NCBI RefSeq assembly: GCF_000025325.1
Contig: NC_013743.1
Location: forward strand, 3,348,001-3,412,000
Length of the DNA stretch: 64,000 nucleotides
Direction: 5' to 3'
Origin: Haloterrigena turkmenica DSM 5511
GTDB lineage: Archaea > Halobacteriota > Halobacteria > Halobacteriales > Natrialbaceae
The notes under the pieces were generated by a model that saw nothing but the letters and a program-made list of their open reading frames with translations, was not told the DNA's origin and searched no databases. The position numbers and the translations under genes were made by a program. Position 1 is the first letter of the stretch. Each line of letters starts with the position of its first letter. Below, one piece after another: positions 6,856-60,919 of this stretch.

Positions 6856-7641
6856 ATGGACCTCGAACTCGACGGTAACAGCGCACTGGTGACGGCCTCC
6901 TCGAGCGGACTCGGCTTCGCGAGCGCCGAGGCCCTCGCCGAGGAGGGCGCGAACGTGATGATCTGCGGTCGCGACGAGGAGCGCCTCGAGGAGGCCCGCG
7001 AGAAGCTCGCCGACGCGGGCGACGGCGAGGTCCGGGCGACGCCGACCGACCTCACGGACCCCGACGAGGTCTCCCATCTCGTCAGCGAGACGGTCGACGC
7101 CTTCGGCGGGATCGACCACCTCGTCACCTCCTCGGGTGGTCCGCCGAGCACCACCTTCCTCGAGACCGACGAACAGGACTGGTACCAGGCCTACGACCTG
7201 CTGGTGATGAGCGTCGTCTGGACGATCGAGAACGCCCACGAGCACCTCCTCGAGTCCGACCACGGCACGATCACCTGCATCACCTCGCGGACGGTCCGCG
7301 AGGTAGCTGACGGCCTCCTGCTGTCGAACTCCGTACGCCGTGGCGTGATCGGCCTCGTCAAGACCGTCTCGCGGGAGTTCGCGCCCGAAATTCGCGCGAA
7401 CGCGGTCCTCCCGGGAACGATCGAAACGCCCCGAATCGAGGAGCTCATCGAGGCGAACATCGAGCGCGGCGTCTACGAGGACTACGAGGAGGGGCTGGCG
7501 GACATGTCGAGCGACATCCCGATGGACCGCCTCGGCGAGCCCCGCGAACTCGGCGACGTCGTGGCGCTGCTCTCGAGTCCCCGCGGGAGTTTCGTCAACG
7601 GTGTCGCGCTCCCGATCGACGGCGGGCTGTTGCGGAGTTAG
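6856..7641 (+). CDS. SDR-family protein lacking the catalytic YxxxK motif
   Basis: A 261-residue short-chain dehydrogenase/reductase fold. The nucleotide-binding motif is atypical (TASSSGLG, 13-20), and the NAG-type motif is replaced by TSSGG (91-95). A Ser is present at 144 (ITSRT). At the usual distance after it, where Tyr and Lys are expected, the sequence is LSNSVRR, with Ser157 and Arg161 in those positions. A C-terminal NGVALPIDGG motif is intact. This matches the BKR-like SDR subgroup described as lacking a perfect catalytic tetrad, so activity may be altered or absent. The ATG at 6856 directly precedes the Rossmann strand. It is monocistronic, downstream of the symporter. Confidence 0.85.
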   Translation: MDLELDGNSALVTASSSGLGFASAEALAEEGANVMICGRDEERLEEAREKLADAGDGEVRATPTDLTDPDEVSHLVSETVDAFGGIDHLVTSSGGPPSTTFLETDEQDWYQAYDLLVMSVVWTIENAHEHLLESDHGTITCITSRTVREVADGLLLSNSVRRGVIGLVKTVSREFAPEIRANAVLPGTIETPRIEELIEANIERGVYEDYEEGLADMSSDIPMDRLGEPRELGDVVALLSSPRGSFVNGVALPIDGGLLRS

Positions 7642-7701
7642 GCGCGCTCGAAACCGTGTTCGAACTCCCTCGAGCGTGATTCGAACAGTAGGTGCATTCT
7701 C

Positions 7702-7831
7702 TGCGGTGGCGCGCGCGGTCGGGAGTCTGAGCGATAGCGAAGACTCCCGACGAAACTGCGCGAGGGATGAGCGAGCGACTGAAGGGAGTGAGCGAATCGG
7801 TTGGGGAGGGTGTGGCAATTCCCTGTTGCCA
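7702..7831 (+). repeat. Structured dispersed repeat, copy A
   Basis: This element begins with TGCGGTGGCGCGCGC (7702-7716) and ends with the conserved core CGGYYGGGGAGGRYGTGG (7798-7815) followed by a CCCTGTTGCCA tail. The interior forms a stem: GGGAGTC (7721-7727) pairs with GACTCCC (7742-7748). The same ends occur in the inverted copy at 7981-8156 and the direct copy at 14255-14512. No coding capacity is apparent. The layout of conserved ends with a variable stem-loop interior suggests a non-autonomous mobile or structured RNA element. I recall similar sequences from Natrinema/Haloterrigena-type genomes, but this is unverified. Confidence 0.75.
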
Positions 7832-7980
7832 GAACAAGCAGACCGCTTCGCTGTTCTTTTCGTGCCTTTCGAACGTCCCGTTCCATTCACGAGTTACTAC
7901 GTCGATCGGTCCAGCGGTACCCGTTCTCGAGTATCGCCATTCAAATCATCTCCTCGAAAGAATCCTCGTTCCTCATTCTC

Positions 7981-8156
7981 GTGGCAACGGTGATTTCCAC
8001 GTCCTCCCCGACCGATTCGCTCGCTTCGTCTGCTTACGGGCGCGAAGCGCCCGTTCGCATGGTATGCGAGACCGAAGGTCTACTCACAGAGACCTCGAAC
8101 GATTTCATTGGCTGTCCTCACTGCCGCTCGGACAGCCGACAGCGCGCGCCACTGCA
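7981..8156 (-). repeat. Structured dispersed repeat, copy C (inverted)
   Basis: On the minus strand this copy starts with TGCAGTGGCGCGCGC (8156-8142) and ends with the core CGGTCGGGGAGGACGTGG (8014-7997) and a CCGTTGCCAC tail (7990-7981). Interior stems include GCTGTCC/GGACAGC (8111-8117 with 8130-8136), GGGCGC/GCGCCC around 8038-8052 and AGACC/GGTCT around a GAA loop. It points towards copy A, with about 150 bases of unexplained DNA between the two 3' ends. It lies just downstream of the riboflavin synthase gene in the 7642-8226 gap, which otherwise holds no gene I can support. Confidence 0.75.
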
Positions 8157-8226
8157 CACTGGCTCTCCAGTGGACAGACTCAGAATTGCGAGAGAGACGC
8201 TGAGATAGTGTTTGCCGACGGATTCG

Positions 8227-8832
8227 TCACTCGAACCGCGCTTCGAGCAGCCGCTCGACGTACTTCGCGAGCACGTCGACCTCGAGGTGGACCTGATCGC
8301 CGACCGACTTCTCGGAGAGCGTCGTGAGGTCGTAGGTCGTCGGGATGATGGCGACGGTCACCCGACCCGCGGCCTCGTCTAGGTCGGCGACGGTGAGGCT
8401 GATCCCGTCGAGCGTGATCGACCCCTTCTCGACGACGTACTTCGCGTACCCCTCGGGCAGTTCGAACTCGAAGAACCAGTCCTCTTCTACGGACTCGATT
8501 TCCGTCACCGTCGCGACCGCGTCGACGTGGCCCTGGACGACGTGGCCATCGAACCGGCCGTCGGCCGGCATCGCCCGCTCGAGGTTGACGATATCTCCCT
8601 CCTCGAGGGTCCCCAGATAGGTCCGCTCGACCGTCTCGGTCGCGAGGAAGACTTCGAACCACGCGCCCGTTTCGAAGCGTTCGACCGTCAGGCAGACGCC
8701 GCTGACGCTGATGCTCTGGCCGTGCTCGAGGCCCGTCGCGACCGCGTCGGCGCCGATGCGCAGTCGGAGGCCGTCGTCGGTCCGCTCGCGAGCGACGATC
8801 TCGCCGGTCTCCTCGACGATTCCCGTGAACAT
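8227..8832 (-). CDS. ribE: Riboflavin synthase (lumazine-binding, alpha-chain type)
   Basis: A 201-residue protein with the typical start MFTGIVEETGEI and two lumazine-binding barrel repeats (about 1-90 and 97-190). The first repeat carries ISVSGVCLTV and the second GSITLDGISLTV. The motif VVQGHVDAVATV opens the second repeat. The enzyme dismutates two 6,7-dimethyl-8-ribityllumazine molecules into riboflavin and the pyrimidinedione. This is the bacterial-style riboflavin synthase rather than the pentameric RibC type of methanogens. The gene is monocistronic, with the structured repeat pair just downstream. The length is normal for the family. Confidence 0.95.
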   Translation of the reverse strand: MFTGIVEETGEIVARERTDDGLRLRIGADAVATGLEHGQSISVSGVCLTVERFETGAWFEVFLATETVERTYLGTLEEGDIVNLERAMPADGRFDGHVVQGHVDAVATVTEIESVEEDWFFEFELPEGYAKYVVEKGSITLDGISLTVADLDEAAGRVTVAIIPTTYDLTTLSEKSVGDQVHLEVDVLAKYVERLLEARFE

Positions 8833-12989: not shown

Positions 12990-13175
12990 TTACGGCGTCG
13001 GTTCCCACCCACAGACGGTACAGGTCGTGGCGGACGTATCGTGCAGGCCGCCACACTCGGGGCACTGCTTCTTATTATACTCCTGCTCCCACCCGACTCG
13101 TTCTACGGTGTGACCGCGGTCCGAGAGGAATTGGTCGATGACGTCGTCACCGCCGCCATTGGGTGAGGTTGCCAT
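12990..13175 (-). CDS. HVO_0416-like small zinc-finger protein
   Basis: A 61-residue protein with an N-terminal polar segment (DDVIDQFLSDRGHTVERVGW) and a C-terminal zinc ribbon formed by CPECGGLH and CTVCGWEP. The pattern GHTVERVGWEQEYNKKQCP is one I recall from the HVO_0416 family of haloarchaeal zinc-finger microproteins. The ATG at 13175 gives the family start (MAT..G.DDV). It diverges from ubaA and is a likely monocistronic leaderless gene. The molecular role is unknown; a structural or regulatory adaptor is plausible. Confidence 0.85.
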   Translation of the reverse strand: MATSPNGGGDDVIDQFLSDRGHTVERVGWEQEYNKKQCPECGGLHDTSATTCTVCGWEPTP

Positions 13176-13356
13176 AGGTGTGTCAATGGCTGCCACAGTA
13201 TTAAACGATTGGGTTGGCACCCAGATCTGCCTCGAACTCCGAACGCCATCGGCGGCCGAACGACGGACGATCGATCGCTCCGATCGACTCGAGAACTGTT
13301 CCAGCACCGCTGGCACGACCCGCGGACTTTTCTCGGTCTCGGTCCAACTATCGCTC

Positions 13357-14199
13357 ATGAGCGACCTGCGCCTCGATGCGACCCAACTCGATCGCTACTC
13401 GAGACACGTCATCATGGATGAGATCGGGCCCGAGGGCCAGCAACGGCTGCTCGATGCCAGCGTCCTCGTCGTCGGAGCGGGCGGCCTGGGCTCGCCGGCG
13501 ATCCAGTACCTCGCGGCGGCGGGGGTCGGCCGGCTGGGGATCGTCGACGACGACGTCGTCGAGCGGTCGAACCTGCAGCGCCAGATCGTCCACGGCGACG
13601 GCGACGTCGGCCGTCCGAAGGTCGAGAGCGCGGCCGACTACGTCGACGCGCTGAACCCGGACATCGACGTCGAGACCCACGAGACCCGCATCACGGCCGA
13701 CAACGTCGGCGACCTCGTGAGCGGCTACGACATCGTCTTAGACGCCAGCGACAACTTCGGCACCCGATACCTGCTCAACGACCACTGCGTCCTCACCGAG
13801 ACGCCGCTGTCCCACGGCGCGATCTACCGCTTCGAGGGGCAGGTCACGACGTTCACGAACGAGCGCGGGGACGGCGTCGACGACTCCCCGCCCTGCTACC
13901 GCTGTATCTTCCCCGAGGCGCCCGAGCCGGGCACCGTCCCCGACTGCGCCACGACCGGCGTCCTCGGCGTCCTTCCCGGCACCGTCGGCTGCATTCAGGC
14001 CACCGAGGTCGTCAAGTACATCCTCGGAAAGGGCGAGCTCCTCGAGGGGCGCCTGCTGATGTACGACGCAATGGCCATGAGCTTCGAGGAGGTGCCGATC
14101 CAGTCGAACCCGACCTGTCCGGTCTGTGGCGACGAGCCCGAGATCGAGTCGGTCGAGGACGTCAGCTACGAGGGGAGCTGCGAGATCTCCGCGGACTGA
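13357..14199 (+). CDS. ubaA: UbaA, E1-like SAMP-activating/ThiF-MoeB family enzyme
   Basis: A 280-residue E1-like protein. It has the nucleotide-binding motif VVGAGGLGSPAIQYLAAAGV, then IVDDDVVERSNLQRQIVH, the catalytic-Cys region VPDCATTGVLGVLPGTVG, and two zinc-binding CxxC pairs (CYRC and CPVC). In Haloferax, UbaA adenylates the ubiquitin-like SAMP proteins for protein modification and for sulfur transfer to tRNA and molybdopterin; a single E1 serves all of these. The ATG at 13357 (MSDLRLDATQLDRYSRH) matches the family start. The upstream extension seen in a longer reading has no family support. The length is normal. Confidence 0.93.
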   Translation: MSDLRLDATQLDRYSRHVIMDEIGPEGQQRLLDASVLVVGAGGLGSPAIQYLAAAGVGRLGIVDDDVVERSNLQRQIVHGDGDVGRPKVESAADYVDALNPDIDVETHETRITADNVGDLVSGYDIVLDASDNFGTRYLLNDHCVLTETPLSHGAIYRFEGQVTTFTNERGDGVDDSPPCYRCIFPEAPEPGTVPDCATTGVLGVLPGTVGCIQATEVVKYILGKGELLEGRLLMYDAMAMSFEEVPIQSNPTCPVCGDEPEIESVEDVSYEGSCEISAD

Positions 14200-14254
14200 A
14201 CGGACACGCCAGCCCCGATCTACGTCCCGATTACTCCAGCCTGAGAAACCACGG

Positions 14255-14512
14255 TGCGGTGGCGCGCGCTGGACCGCGGTGAGGCGGCGTTGTGCGACTG
14301 GAGAGAGCGCCGACGAACCGCGGTCCGAACGCGCGCGAGGTCTTCACGAACGGAGTGAGTGAAGGCTTGGAAGACACTGTGCGTCTTCCAGTGGATGAGC
14401 GACCGGAGGAAGCATTAGCGCGGGAACTCTGGTCCCGCGAACCATCCGAACGGGTGCTTCGCACCCGTGAGGAGAAATCGGCTGGGGAGGGCGTGGCGAT
14501 TCCCCGTTGCCA
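14255..14512 (+). repeat. Structured dispersed repeat, copy B
   Basis: This copy begins TGCGGTGGCGCGCGC (14255-14269) and ends with the core CGGCTGGGGAGGGCGTGG (14479-14496) and a CCCCGTTGCCAC tail. It is longer than copy A (about 258 bases against 130). Its interior contains several stems: GGACCGCGG/CCGCGGTCC (14271-14279 with 14318-14326), CGCGGGA/TCCCGCG (14419-14425 with 14433-14439) and CGGGTGC/GCACCCG around a TTC loop (14451-14467). It sits between ubaA and the acidic PRC-barrel protein, in a 416-base gap with no gene. Confidence 0.75.
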
Positions 14513-14615
14513 CAAGCAGCAGAAACTCGCGTTCATCCAAACGCCGTTCGAAACGCGTCTCGGAACAGATGCGGCCAGCTTCACCGAGGAACCCGGTGGG
14601 GAAAGATCGATCCCG

Positions 14616-16904
14616 CTATTCCGCGTCGTCGGCCAGTCGCTGCTGACACGCCTCGAGGATCGCGACCTGTCGCTCGAGCAGGTCGCCGGTGATTTCGTCG
14701 TTCGTATCGACTCCCGCTTTGGTCGCGTCGACCGTTTCCTCGAGTTGCGTCTGCATCGATCGGAGCAACTCGAGGTGGACCGAGAGCTGTTGGTCGAACT
14801 CGTCGGCCGGGAGGTCGGCGTGTGTGTCCTCGAGAGCGGCGATCGCCTCGTCCACCGACCGGGACGAGCCAGGGTCGGAACCGGTACCGCCACCCAGCAG
14901 CGCACCGACGATATCGAAGTAGCCGCTGGTCGCCGCCTGCGTCGCCTCGAGGCCCTGCTGTTGCATTCGGAGCGGCGTCTCGACAGCCGAGGGGGCGGCG
15001 GCCTGCTGGGCGGCGAGGCCCTGTTTGACCAGTTCCTGTCCGCCGGTCATCGCGGCCCGCTGTGTCGCGACCACAGCCGCGAGCGGCGAGCCCGCTCGAT
15101 CGTATCGGTCGGTCGTCTCGCGATCGGTCTCGCTCTCAGCAACGGGGAGATCCGGCTCGTCGACGCGCTCTCTAGCGACTGCTCCGTCCGCCGACTCAGT
15201 GTCAGTCTCCTGGTCGGCGAGCGTCTCCGGATCGATCCCCGGTTCCGAACCCGCATCTTCGTCGGCATCGACGGCGGATTCGATGTCGACGCCGGGGGCG
15301 ACGTCCGTCGGCGACTGCTGTTCGTCCGAAGACATCGACTCGTCTCGAGTCGCCGCGTCGTCGACGGTCGATTCCGGTGACTCGAGTTCGGTCTCCGGCC
15401 GAGGATCGGACGCGGGACCCGAGCGAGCGTCGACGTCGGGATCCAGGTCCGTCTCGGGACGGGCGTCGGGCCGCGATCCCGAATCACCCGTCGCGGCCGA
15501 CTCGATGTCGACGCCCGTATCGACCGCATCGGTGAGGTCCGTCGATTCGGTTTCGCTCGAGGACCCCTCGCGGTCGGCGTCAGGGGTCGATTCCGCGGCC
15601 GACTCGAGGTCGAGACCGGTGTCGACCGCCTCGGCGACGTCCGCGTCGTCGCTCGAGTCGCTCTCCGTTCGGTCCGCATCGTCAGACTGCTCGTCGTCGC
15701 CGGACGCTACCGCGGCGTCGATATCGGTGCCGGCGTCCAGTTCGCTGGCGAGATCCGTCTCCTCGGTCGCCGGTTCCGCCGCATCGTTGCTCGAGTCGCT
15801 CGCTGCCGGCTCCGCAGCCGAGTCAGTGATGGCTCCGCCGTCAGCGTCGTCCTCGCGGGCGGCGTCGTTCTCGCGGTCGGTGTCGGCCGGCGACTCCATC
15901 TCGGCGTGGTCGGGCGCCGACTTTGCCTCCCCGACCGGCGTGTTCTGGACGCCCGCACGATCCATCTCGTCGGGAGAGTCCCTGTCTCGAGATTCGCTCG
16001 TTTCGTCGTCCGACGACTGTGTGTCGGCGGTTTCGGCGTCCGAGTCGCTTTCCGTGTCCGTCTCGAGTGGCTCCGTCGTCTCGATCCCGCTTGACGTCTC
16101 GGCCGTGTCGATCTCGTCGCGTGAGTCGCGATCGCCGGGACCGGCTATCGAGTCATCCGCCGTCGAGTCGTCGGTCCCACCCATCGGTTCGATCGCGTCA
16201 GAGTCGGCGGCGGCATCCGTCGACTCGTCCAGTTCCGGATCGCCGGGGGCATCTATCGGCTCGCCCATCTCCGGTTCGTCGGGAGTCTCGATCGACTCGT
16301 CGGTCTCCGACTCGACGATCACGGACGGCTCCGCTGGCTGTGTTGTCGTCTCCGACTGCTCGTCGTCGGCTTCGGACGGTTCGGACTCCGCGGTAGCAGT
16401 ATCGGCGGGCCCGGCGGGCTCGTCGGTCCGCTCGGCCGCGTTCCCTGTCACGTCTCCCTCCTCGTTGACGGTATCTCGCTGTGCGGCCCCGCGCATCTCC
16501 TCGGTGAGTTCGGCGTCCAAGTCGCGTTCTGCAGCGTTCGCGGGCTCGTCCTCCGCTCGAGACGCCGACTCCGTCGCGTCGGAGACGTTCGACGGTGTCG
16601 ATGCGGCCGTATCGACATCCGCTGGCTCGTCTGGCGATCGGTCAGTCGACGTCGTCTCGCCCGCCGCGGCCGTCTCGAGGCGGATCGCCTCGCTCGAGAT
16701 CGCGTCGACGGCGTCCTCGTGGATCGCGACGGTGTCCTCGTGGCTCCCGCTCCAGCCGAGGGCGGCCCTGATCGAGTCGACGAGGCCGGTCCGGGGTTCG
16801 ACGCGAACGGTATCGTCCTCGACGGACGCGACGGTCCCGATCACCTCGCCGGACTCGTTCTCGACGGTTTTCTCGAGATCGTCGTCAGTAAACGTGGCGC
16901 TCAT
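14616..16904 (-). CDS. Large acidic PRC-barrel protein with repeated DIESA motifs
   Basis: A 762-residue protein. Residues about 1-75 resemble a PRC-barrel (LEKTVENESGEVIGTV, then VEPRTGLVDSIRAALGW). About 80-600 is a very long Asp/Glu/Ser/Thr/Pro-rich segment. It contains repeated motifs of the type AVDTGVDIESAA, AVDTGLDLESAA and GVDIESAVDAD, spaced roughly 105-115 bases apart in the DNA between 15270 and 15760. The last 160 residues return to a helical, less acidic form (AAVVATQRAAMTGGQELVKQ), vaguely phasin-like. The ATG at 16904 gives the PRC start. It lies upstream of the structured repeat copy B and downstream of a PrsW-like protease gene. Function is unknown. Confidence 0.75.
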   Translation of the reverse strand: MSATFTDDDLEKTVENESGEVIGTVASVEDDTVRVEPRTGLVDSIRAALGWSGSHEDTVAIHEDAVDAISSEAIRLETAAAGETTSTDRSPDEPADVDTAASTPSNVSDATESASRAEDEPANAAERDLDAELTEEMRGAAQRDTVNEEGDVTGNAAERTDEPAGPADTATAESEPSEADDEQSETTTQPAEPSVIVESETDESIETPDEPEMGEPIDAPGDPELDESTDAAADSDAIEPMGGTDDSTADDSIAGPGDRDSRDEIDTAETSSGIETTEPLETDTESDSDAETADTQSSDDETSESRDRDSPDEMDRAGVQNTPVGEAKSAPDHAEMESPADTDRENDAAREDDADGGAITDSAAEPAASDSSNDAAEPATEETDLASELDAGTDIDAAVASGDDEQSDDADRTESDSSDDADVAEAVDTGLDLESAAESTPDADREGSSSETESTDLTDAVDTGVDIESAATGDSGSRPDARPETDLDPDVDARSGPASDPRPETELESPESTVDDAATRDESMSSDEQQSPTDVAPGVDIESAVDADEDAGSEPGIDPETLADQETDTESADGAVARERVDEPDLPVAESETDRETTDRYDRAGSPLAAVVATQRAAMTGGQELVKQGLAAQQAAAPSAVETPLRMQQQGLEATQAATSGYFDIVGALLGGGTGSDPGSSRSVDEAIAALEDTHADLPADEFDQQLSVHLELLRSMQTQLEETVDATKAGVDTNDEITGDLLERQVAILEACQQRLADDAE

Positions 16905-17020
16905 GGGAGACTCTCGGGCCGCTGCGAGGCAAGCCACTGCTGCCTGCACCCGCGGGCCGCGTCAGAACCGCCGCTCTGACGGGTCGACACGGTGGGATCG
17001 TCGCTCGAGACCGAGACTCG

Positions 17021-59338: not shown

Positions 59339-59464
59339 CGCGAACACGCGACTCGAGTCGCTCCGCTTCACGTCGATCGATTTCGTCGGGATTCGCCGCC
59401 GTGAATCGCCGTTCTGTTCTCATCTCTCGTCCGTACGCAGTGGCCTCTCGTACGCGGTACCCAC

Positions 59465-60919
59465 TCACTGCTCAGTGATCCGCCGGCCGTCGAGCCGAGA
59501 CCGGCGACTCGGCTCGGAGACCGCCCGCGCACAACGCAGGCCGGTCTCGAGCGCGCCGCCGGCGCGTCGCTGGGGGAACTGCGGCTGCCGGACGACCGTC
59601 GCGTCGTAGATGCCGTCAAGATCAGTCGCGCGCGCGTGCGGAGACGCTCCGTTGACGCTCGAGTGAACGCCGTCGGGGACCGGCTGCCGGATCCGCGTCG
59701 AGTCGACGGCGACGAGGTCGTTCCGGTCGAACGCGGAGAACCGGGACGCCAGCGCCTCGAGCCACCGTCGTTCGATCGTCGCGCTCGAGCGACCGTCGGC
59801 GACCGCTTCGCCGCCGTCGAGCAGGTAGTACCGGTGACCGCTGGACGCGTCGGGCGAGCGCGGTATCGTCGGTGCGACGAGTTCGCCGAAGGGTGCATCG
59901 TCGACCATCGTCACGCGATACGCGTCGGTCAGCTGCGTTTCGGCGGTCGTCGAGACCCGCAGACAGGTCCGCGTTCGAAACGATACCGACGGGGATCCAA
60001 GCGACGACTCGAGGGCCTCCGGAACGGTCGCCAGCACGACCGCGTCGACGGCGTGGCGCTCGCTCGCGTCGCCCCGGTCGACGGTGAGCGACTCGACGGC
60101 GCCGTCCGCCGTCCCGAGTTCGCTCACGCGCGCGTTCGTCGCGATCCGCTCGCGGCCGACGGCGTCGACGAGCGCCTCGACGAGGACGGCCGCGCTCTCG
60201 GCGAAATAGCCGTGCTTCTCCCGGCCGAACCGAGTGCGGTCCACCCGGCCGCGACAGTGCTCGAGCACCCACGCGGCGCTGACATTCGCCGCCGCCGAGC
60301 CAAAGCGAGCCTCGAGCAGCGGTCCGTAGAACCGCTCGTAGACGGCGTCGCTCGCGTGCTCGCGGACGAACGCCTCCGCCGGGACGTCGCTGTAATCCGA
60401 CGGCTCGTAGGCGTCGAACTGCGGCCGTCGTCGAGGGAGGCCGCGGCAATCGATCCCGCTCTGGAGGGCGGCGAGACGCGCGGTATCCGACAGCGACAGC
60501 GGCGGGTAGGCCAGAAACTCCCAGGGCGCGTCGACGGGGTGGACGATGCCGTCGACGTACATCGCCGTCCGGATCGGTCCCCACTCGAGGTGACCGGACA
60601 GGCCGAGTTCCGCGAGCAACTCGAGAGCGACCTCGTCTCTGGGTCGGGTAAACGAAACGGGGACGCGCTCGAGCGGTGTAGTGGCGGTTCCAGACGGCGA
60701 CGATGGAGACAGGGGTGACGGCCAGGACGGAGACTGAGACGGTGCAGACGAAGACGGAGACTGAGCCGAAGACGACGAAGGCGAAGTCGGAGACGGGGTC
60801 GTCGCCGCGATGCCGCCCAGTTCGTCGCCCGGTTCGAAGACGCGGACGTCGTAGCCGCGCTGGCGGAGCCGGTAGGCGGCCGCGAGTCCGGACAGCGATC
60901 CGCCGACGACGCCGATCAT
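59465..60919 (-). CDS. FAD-dependent amine oxidase/protoporphyrinogen oxidase-like protein
   Basis: A 484-residue flavoprotein. The FAD motif is GVVGGSLSGLAAAYRLRQRG, followed by EPGDELGGIAAT. Immediately after that lies a Ser/Pro-rich low-complexity insertion (about residues 41-78), encoded by a simple-sequence DNA region with an in-frame 27-base repeat. Later segments include MYVDGIVHPVDAPWEFLAYP, FYGPLLEARFGS and ATVPEALESSLG. Members oxidise amines, porphyrinogens or sterols; the substrate is unknown. The insertion may make this copy unusual. The start at 60919 is the only ATG directly before the FAD strand. Confidence 0.82.
   Translation of the reverse strand: MIGVVGGSLSGLAAAYRLRQRGYDVRVFEPGDELGGIAATTPSPTSPSSSSAQSPSSSAPSQSPSWPSPLSPSSPSGTATTPLERVPVSFTRPRDEVALELLAELGLSGHLEWGPIRTAMYVDGIVHPVDAPWEFLAYPPLSLSDTARLAALQSGIDCRGLPRRRPQFDAYEPSDYSDVPAEAFVREHASDAVYERFYGPLLEARFGSAAANVSAAWVLEHCRGRVDRTRFGREKHGYFAESAAVLVEALVDAVGRERIATNARVSELGTADGAVESLTVDRGDASERHAVDAVVLATVPEALESSLGSPSVSFRTRTCLRVSTTAETQLTDAYRVTMVDDAPFGELVAPTIPRSPDASSGHRYYLLDGGEAVADGRSSATIERRWLEALASRFSAFDRNDLVAVDSTRIRQPVPDGVHSSVNGASPHARATDLDGIYDATVVRQPQFPQRRAGGALETGLRCARAVSEPSRRSRLDGRRITEQ

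Follow-up and report, generated by a model that had tools for sequence, protein, structure and literature searches.

Element B, a 260-nt intergenic element of Haloterrigena turkmenica, belongs in our view (probability of roughly 0.55) to a family of dispersed, non-coding elements that is widespread in haloarchaea and whose members work as folded single strands, RNA being likelier than DNA. The best reading of its history is that of a formerly mobile element, now mostly inherited in place. If the family is an RNA, it is an archaeal structured RNA family with an unusually high gene copy number and no Rfam 15 match; if it is a mobile element, selection still acts on its folded shape at fixed sites, long after it was inserted there. 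The many copies and the sister species without the element allow direct tests of function.

The element and its copies in the window

The window is the whole 64-kb stretch of DNA analysed (G000:C1:3348001-3412000), in a genome of 5.44 Mb and seven contigs, of which C1 makes up 71%. It holds three copies with common end blocks, as the first-pass annotation had recognized: A (132 nt), B (260 nt) and C (177 nt). Their positions and the parts of B are as follows.

7701-7832, plus strand: copy A, short form, 132 nt
7981-8157, minus strand: copy C, 177 nt, convergent with A
14254-14513, plus strand: core of element B, 260 nt, with model hits at 14254-14376 and 14476-14513
14254-14271, plus strand: left constant block GTGCGGTGGCGCGCGCTG, holding the 5′ strand of P1 (CGCGC); mean pairwise identity 0.89 over 6 orthologous sites
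14271-14280, plus strand: 5′ arm of stem I, 10/10 pairs with its own 3′ arm
14317-14326, plus strand: 3′ arm of stem I, 10/10 pairs with its own 5′ arm
14332-14340, plus strand: constant block CGCGCGAGG, the 3′ strand of P1
14341-14393, plus strand: hairpin module M1, inserted in GAGG^GATGAG and present only in some copies
14394-14399, plus strand: constant block GATGAG
14415-14475, plus strand: hairpin module M2, two hairpins, at the position of the insert in the G002 copy of A (judged by eye)
14476-14513, plus strand: right constant block; mean pairwise identity 0.90 over 6 orthologous sites
14484-14488 with 14500-14504, and 14493-14497 with 14509-14513, plus strand: possible pseudoknot of the right block, according to pair counts

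At up to 3 mismatches, the window contains the right-end 17-mer 3 times where chance predicts 0.41; 0/100 shuffles reached 3. The left 16-mer alone, at 3 mismatches, stays at chance level (5 against 5.9 expected in the window) and is convincing only in combination with the right end. The interior of B, described earlier as about twice that of A, measures 205 nt against 77 nt, i.e., ≈2.7 times as long (taking 18 and 37 nt as the end blocks); that description was roughly right. B also folds better than shuffled sequence: against 200 shuffles its z is −4.7 on the plus strand and −5.6 on the minus strand, so the strand cannot be read from fold energy.

A and C share one gap, flanked by a short-chain dehydrogenase gene (6856-7641, plus) and a lumazine-binding-domain gene (8227-8832, minus). 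The neighbours of B are a ThiF-family gene (13138-14199, plus) and a minus-strand gene (14616-16949) without a Pfam match. Rfam covariance models gave 0 matches above gathering score in the whole window, and relaxed Rfam searches of B and four Natrinema zhouii loci returned only matches far below gathering scores. A weak model match at 59410-59532 on the minus strand (13.3 bits, E 0.64) may be a decayed copy or chance.

Across copies, the parts follow the order GTGCGGTGGCGCGCGCTG, stem I, GYGCGAGG, GATGAG, second hairpin and GAATCGGYTGGGGAGG; the recurring constant blocks are GGCGCGCGC, GYGCGAGG-GATGAG and GAATCGGYTGGGGAGG, the last being followed by NNGTGGCGATTCCCTGTTGCCAC, with variants, in Natrinema and Haloterrigena. 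Palindromes are found near both ends (stem I and the right hairpin). Over 31 copies of N. zhouii, the conserved region ends abruptly behind CTGTTCCATTCAC, 55 nt 3′ of the core, whereas on the 5′ side it fades gradually and is gone by ≈47 nt upstream. Copy lengths range from 117 to 406 nt, too short for a transposase gene. A GGGACTCAAAGGGGCAG-like tail stands 3′ of the element in 27 of the 36 copies of genus g18 (L202, L205-L207, L216 and others), and similar tails follow some f4/f5 copies.

Pairing kept while stem sequence changes

The arms of stem I vary in sequence and keep pairing with each other. Over 90 of 94 copies that could be parsed, mostly from Haloterrigena and Natrinema (the 4 without the tail motif were left out), own arms form 8.97 of 10 pairs, arms swapped between copies 6.96, and the highest of 200 shuffles reaches 7.37. 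The 40 copies from families f4, f5, f6 and f17 behave alike, with 6.6 of 7 pairs for own arms, 5.36 for swapped ones and 5.68 for the highest of 300 shuffles. The second hairpin of g18 (32 distinct sequences) gives 4.2 of 5 pairs against 2.7 when swapped and 3.2 in the highest of 500 shuffles. These swap and shuffle tests count related copies several times; 8 alignment duplicates were removed from the extracted copy set. When 42 short copies were aligned, 93.5% of cells were paired against 83.8% after shuffling, none of 500 shuffles being as high, and 12 pairs had changed on both sides. P1 as well as stem I is maintained by compensatory change as its sequence turns over. The right hairpin and pseudoknot show little variation among these 42 copies and are therefore weakly tested by covariation.

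The view that the ends are the conserved unit thus stands in part: they are ≈0.90 identical, but conservation also extends to the inner blocks (GYGCGAGG and GATGAG) and to stem I pairing. By comparison of the copies, the shape of the element and its inner constant blocks are conserved besides the ends: stem I keeps its pairing, and two length differences were traced to whole hairpin modules at two spots. Random interiors with no structural conservation had been named as the outcome that would speak against the earlier interpretation; we found interior sequence near random and structure conserved.

Mismatch cells in stem I are biased: 49 are G-T and 11 are A-C, a ratio of 4.5 (90 parsed copies, unfiltered), against 1.48 in column shuffles, where the highest of 500 is 1.98. 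G-T is far better tolerated than A-C, which marks the plus strand of the element as the one that folds. One P1 pair is GU in 21 copies, GC in 19 and AU in 2; a GU as the commonest state (21/42) points to RNA without proving it. Single-stranded DNA too would tolerate G-T better than A-C, so that the G-T bias is no proof of RNA.

The suggestion of an RNA with variable specificity loops fares differently in its two halves. Compensatory change together with G-T tolerance agrees with an RNA; variable loops are not favoured, because the paired stem is what varies most and the tip loops of short stems are small (3-5 nt, over the 77 copies whose stem I is short). In 47 of these 77 copies, the tip consists of a tandem G-A, two pairs and a 3-4 nt loop; by eye, most of the other 30 look like 5-nt loops, and most have GA on both strands. 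A comparison of loops between copies, as had been proposed, found GN(N)A in 28 of the 47 fitting tips, so that a constant GNNA tip loop is borne out only in part and does not extend across the 77. In copy L013, the tip looks by eye like the usual one reverse-complemented, as if inverted between the arms.

Distribution, site history and a candidate promoter

A DNA search with B finds 58 matches in its own genome, some of them fragments. With the covariance model, built from the 42 short copies, 150 candidates were scored, of which 119 reached E ≤ 0.1; 118 of these hits lie on C1 and merge to 95 elements, and the single hit elsewhere is weak. All 50 matches in N. zhouii are likewise on the chromosome. 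A scan across the order found matches at E ≤ 1e-4 in 143 of 293 genomes, belonging to 46 of 87 genera; it scored 10 candidates per genome, and its copy numbers are lower bounds. Deeper searches at E ≤ 0.001 give 118, 69 and 153 hits in three further genomes of the genus (G003, G004 and G005), and in genus g9 a deeper search gives 56, 51 and 28 hits in three genomes. Ten genomes of f4, f5, f6 and f17, chosen for good matches, have 8 to 53 hits at E ≤ 1e-6, and the exact two-block pattern of g18 occurs 23 to 66 times per genome in six genomes (reversed control, 0).

Secondary replicons elsewhere do carry copies; a Natrinema thermotolerans record, for instance, has them at two places. Plasmid records were matched by copy B (2) and by a g18 copy (8), the match on an N. 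zhouii plasmid among these 8 covering only the part downstream of the core. Viral contigs gave 0 exact matches of one right-end pattern, and phage records gave no match. Six genomes that were blank in the first scan, two of them from g9, still had no model match in the deeper search; one of the six, G016, was matched once in a DNA search with B (E 1.1e-5). Since it is absent from some sister species, the element is shown to be dispensable, not essential, and such patchy absence fits a selfish or accessory role. In genus g43, each of four genomes searched again has one match, which in three (L194, L195 and L198) lies between what look by eye like cobalamin-biosynthesis genes, on the opposite strand.

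Site B is old. In all six genomes of the genus, B occupies the same place in the same orientation, with an interior of 68-209 nt. Mean pairwise identity over the six sites is 0.89 and 0.90 for the ends, 0.36 for the interior (gaps counted), and 0.47 and 0.60 for the 50-nt flanks. Ends ≈90% identical at a fixed site in six genomes suggest selection after insertion. Copy A is present in five of the six; the sixth, G004, has ≈110 bp between the two genes and no element, which looks like a loss because the other five have A. Copy C is whole in the genome of the window, carries an internal deletion in G001 and was not seen in the other four. Length differences of a whole module can be followed at A, where the G001 copy has a hairpin module of ≈50 bp absent from the otherwise near-identical copy in the window, and that of G002 has another, of ≈60 bp, at a second spot. 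In G005, the segment 8229-14283 is inverted relative to the window. Its two breakpoints correspond to the gaps occupied in the window by A/C and by B, and in G005 one junction is without an element.

TATA-like boxes were found in one genus. In g18, a box lies at −22 to −5 in 18 of 36 copies against 1 of 36 at −65 to −48, and the copies fetched after the box was first noticed give 11 against 1 of 24; a second cluster occupies −50 to −33 in 9 of 36. With usual TATA spacing, transcription from the boxes at −22 to −5 would start inside P1. None of 30 copies from other genera has the box at −22 to −5, and a promoter common to the family was rejected. Transcription is thus suggested by sequence for g18 alone, because the TATA-like box is absent from the 30 copies of other genera.

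Competing explanations and known systems

The strongest competitor is a non-autonomous transposable element of the PATE/REPIN kind, whose single-stranded DNA hairpins would be read by a transposase acting in trans, with no cellular RNA involved. This is a serious possibility that we nevertheless think probably wrong. Dispersed copies, the abrupt 3′ end of conservation behind CTGTTCCATTCAC in N. zhouii, the element-free A site in G004 and the patchy presence among close species all speak for it, as do the PATEs of Haloquadratum, which are numerous and have near-terminal palindromes (PMC3119063). Presence or absence at single sites also speaks for the mobile element proposed in the first-pass annotation, and to that extent the proposal stands; a transposase with matching ends was not found among the two families searched in the window's genome. 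Within 1.5 kb on each side of the matches to two transposase families (TnpB and TnpA) in the genome of the window, the ends of the element are absent from all 13 TnpB loci and the one TnpA remnant, and TnpB/IS605 was rejected as partner for this genome. The sole Y1 transposase match there is a 38-aa remnant with a stop. Further points against mobility are copies that avoid the smaller replicons (118/119 on C1), where 8 of the 13 TnpB matches lie, the retention of B in 6/6 genomes with its ends ≈90% identical, and a G004 gap that looks like loss. As to target duplication, the 5′ boundary is gradual and the empty site is this same apparent loss. The Y1 (PF01797) remnant is at G000:C1:1301393-1301506, ≈1 kb from a TnpB match.

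The same loci bear on the idea that the copies are what is left of omegaRNA-like guide RNAs associated with TnpB, the guide being flanking DNA. By eye, the 3′ TTCAC looks similar to what is presumably the end of some TnpB elements, and a pseudoknot is possible; however, model R1 had no match at E ≤ 10 in the 14 loci (13 TnpB and 1 TnpA remnant), and we consider this origin very improbable. Gene context bears on the possibility that the element serves the gene upstream of it as a transcription terminator or a 3′ UTR element. The copies lie between genes: in none of 94 is the element covered by a predicted gene (edge overlaps of up to 90 nt were tolerated, and one of 20 nt was found). Among 91 copies with both neighbours called, by codon score and with orthologous sites counted more than once, 39 are convergent, 41 tandem and 11 divergent, and the excess of convergent over divergent contexts speaks for a terminator, as do the close element pairs of the window's genome, convergent in 15/15 cases (tandem pairs being hidden by the merging of hits). 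Against this, copies in tandem contexts run along the genes 20 times and opposed to them 21 times. Convergence as a rule for close pairs was rejected, divergent pairs occurring in G049 (at least 2) and G005 (at least 1), and a terminator role deserves hardly any credence.

Returning to the folded, probably RNA, family, we propose that an ancestor of the element would have spread by copying, and that its copies now presumably pass down mostly at the same sites, with occasional losses and with length added by hairpin modules. The element would be transcribed and act as a folded RNA, its shape most likely being recognized by a protein rather than through base pairing with targets; protein recognition is favoured because the variable parts are mostly paired. 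Tentatively, and at somewhat short of even odds, this may amount to a new class of archaeal non-coding RNA acting through shape, possibly a family-wide protein-binding scaffold, with tens to more than 100 copies per genome in many Halobacteria, a constant core and sequence-free stems often bearing tandem G-A steps.

No such family was recognized in the literature searched, and the core strings were found there only in four unrelated papers. REPINs and REP elements form hairpins, as the element does. They are also short dispersed repeats (PMC3116915). Unlike REPINs, the element is longer, multi-stem and variable in stem sequence, and an intact Y1/RAYT-like transposase was not found in its own genome. 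The PATEs of Haloquadratum walsbyi are, like the element, short, non-coding, haloarchaeal, present in many copies and without a transposase, with palindromes near the ends and other small elements inserted inside (PMC3119063). PATE ends are related to IS605-type transposons, whereas the ends of the element occur at no TnpB locus of its own genome; free stem sequence with pairing kept and the age of site B also set it apart. A bioinformatic search for sRNAs in H. volcanii, reportedly by Babski et al. in 2011, may bear on repeated sRNA families. Archaeal sRNAs are given as ≈50-400 nt long in a study of haloarchaeal intergenic sRNAs (PMC3956466), which resemble the element in being intergenic. 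The same study reports 22 of 27 deletion-tested sRNAs as confined to H. volcanii, unlike which the present family is widespread and multi-copy.
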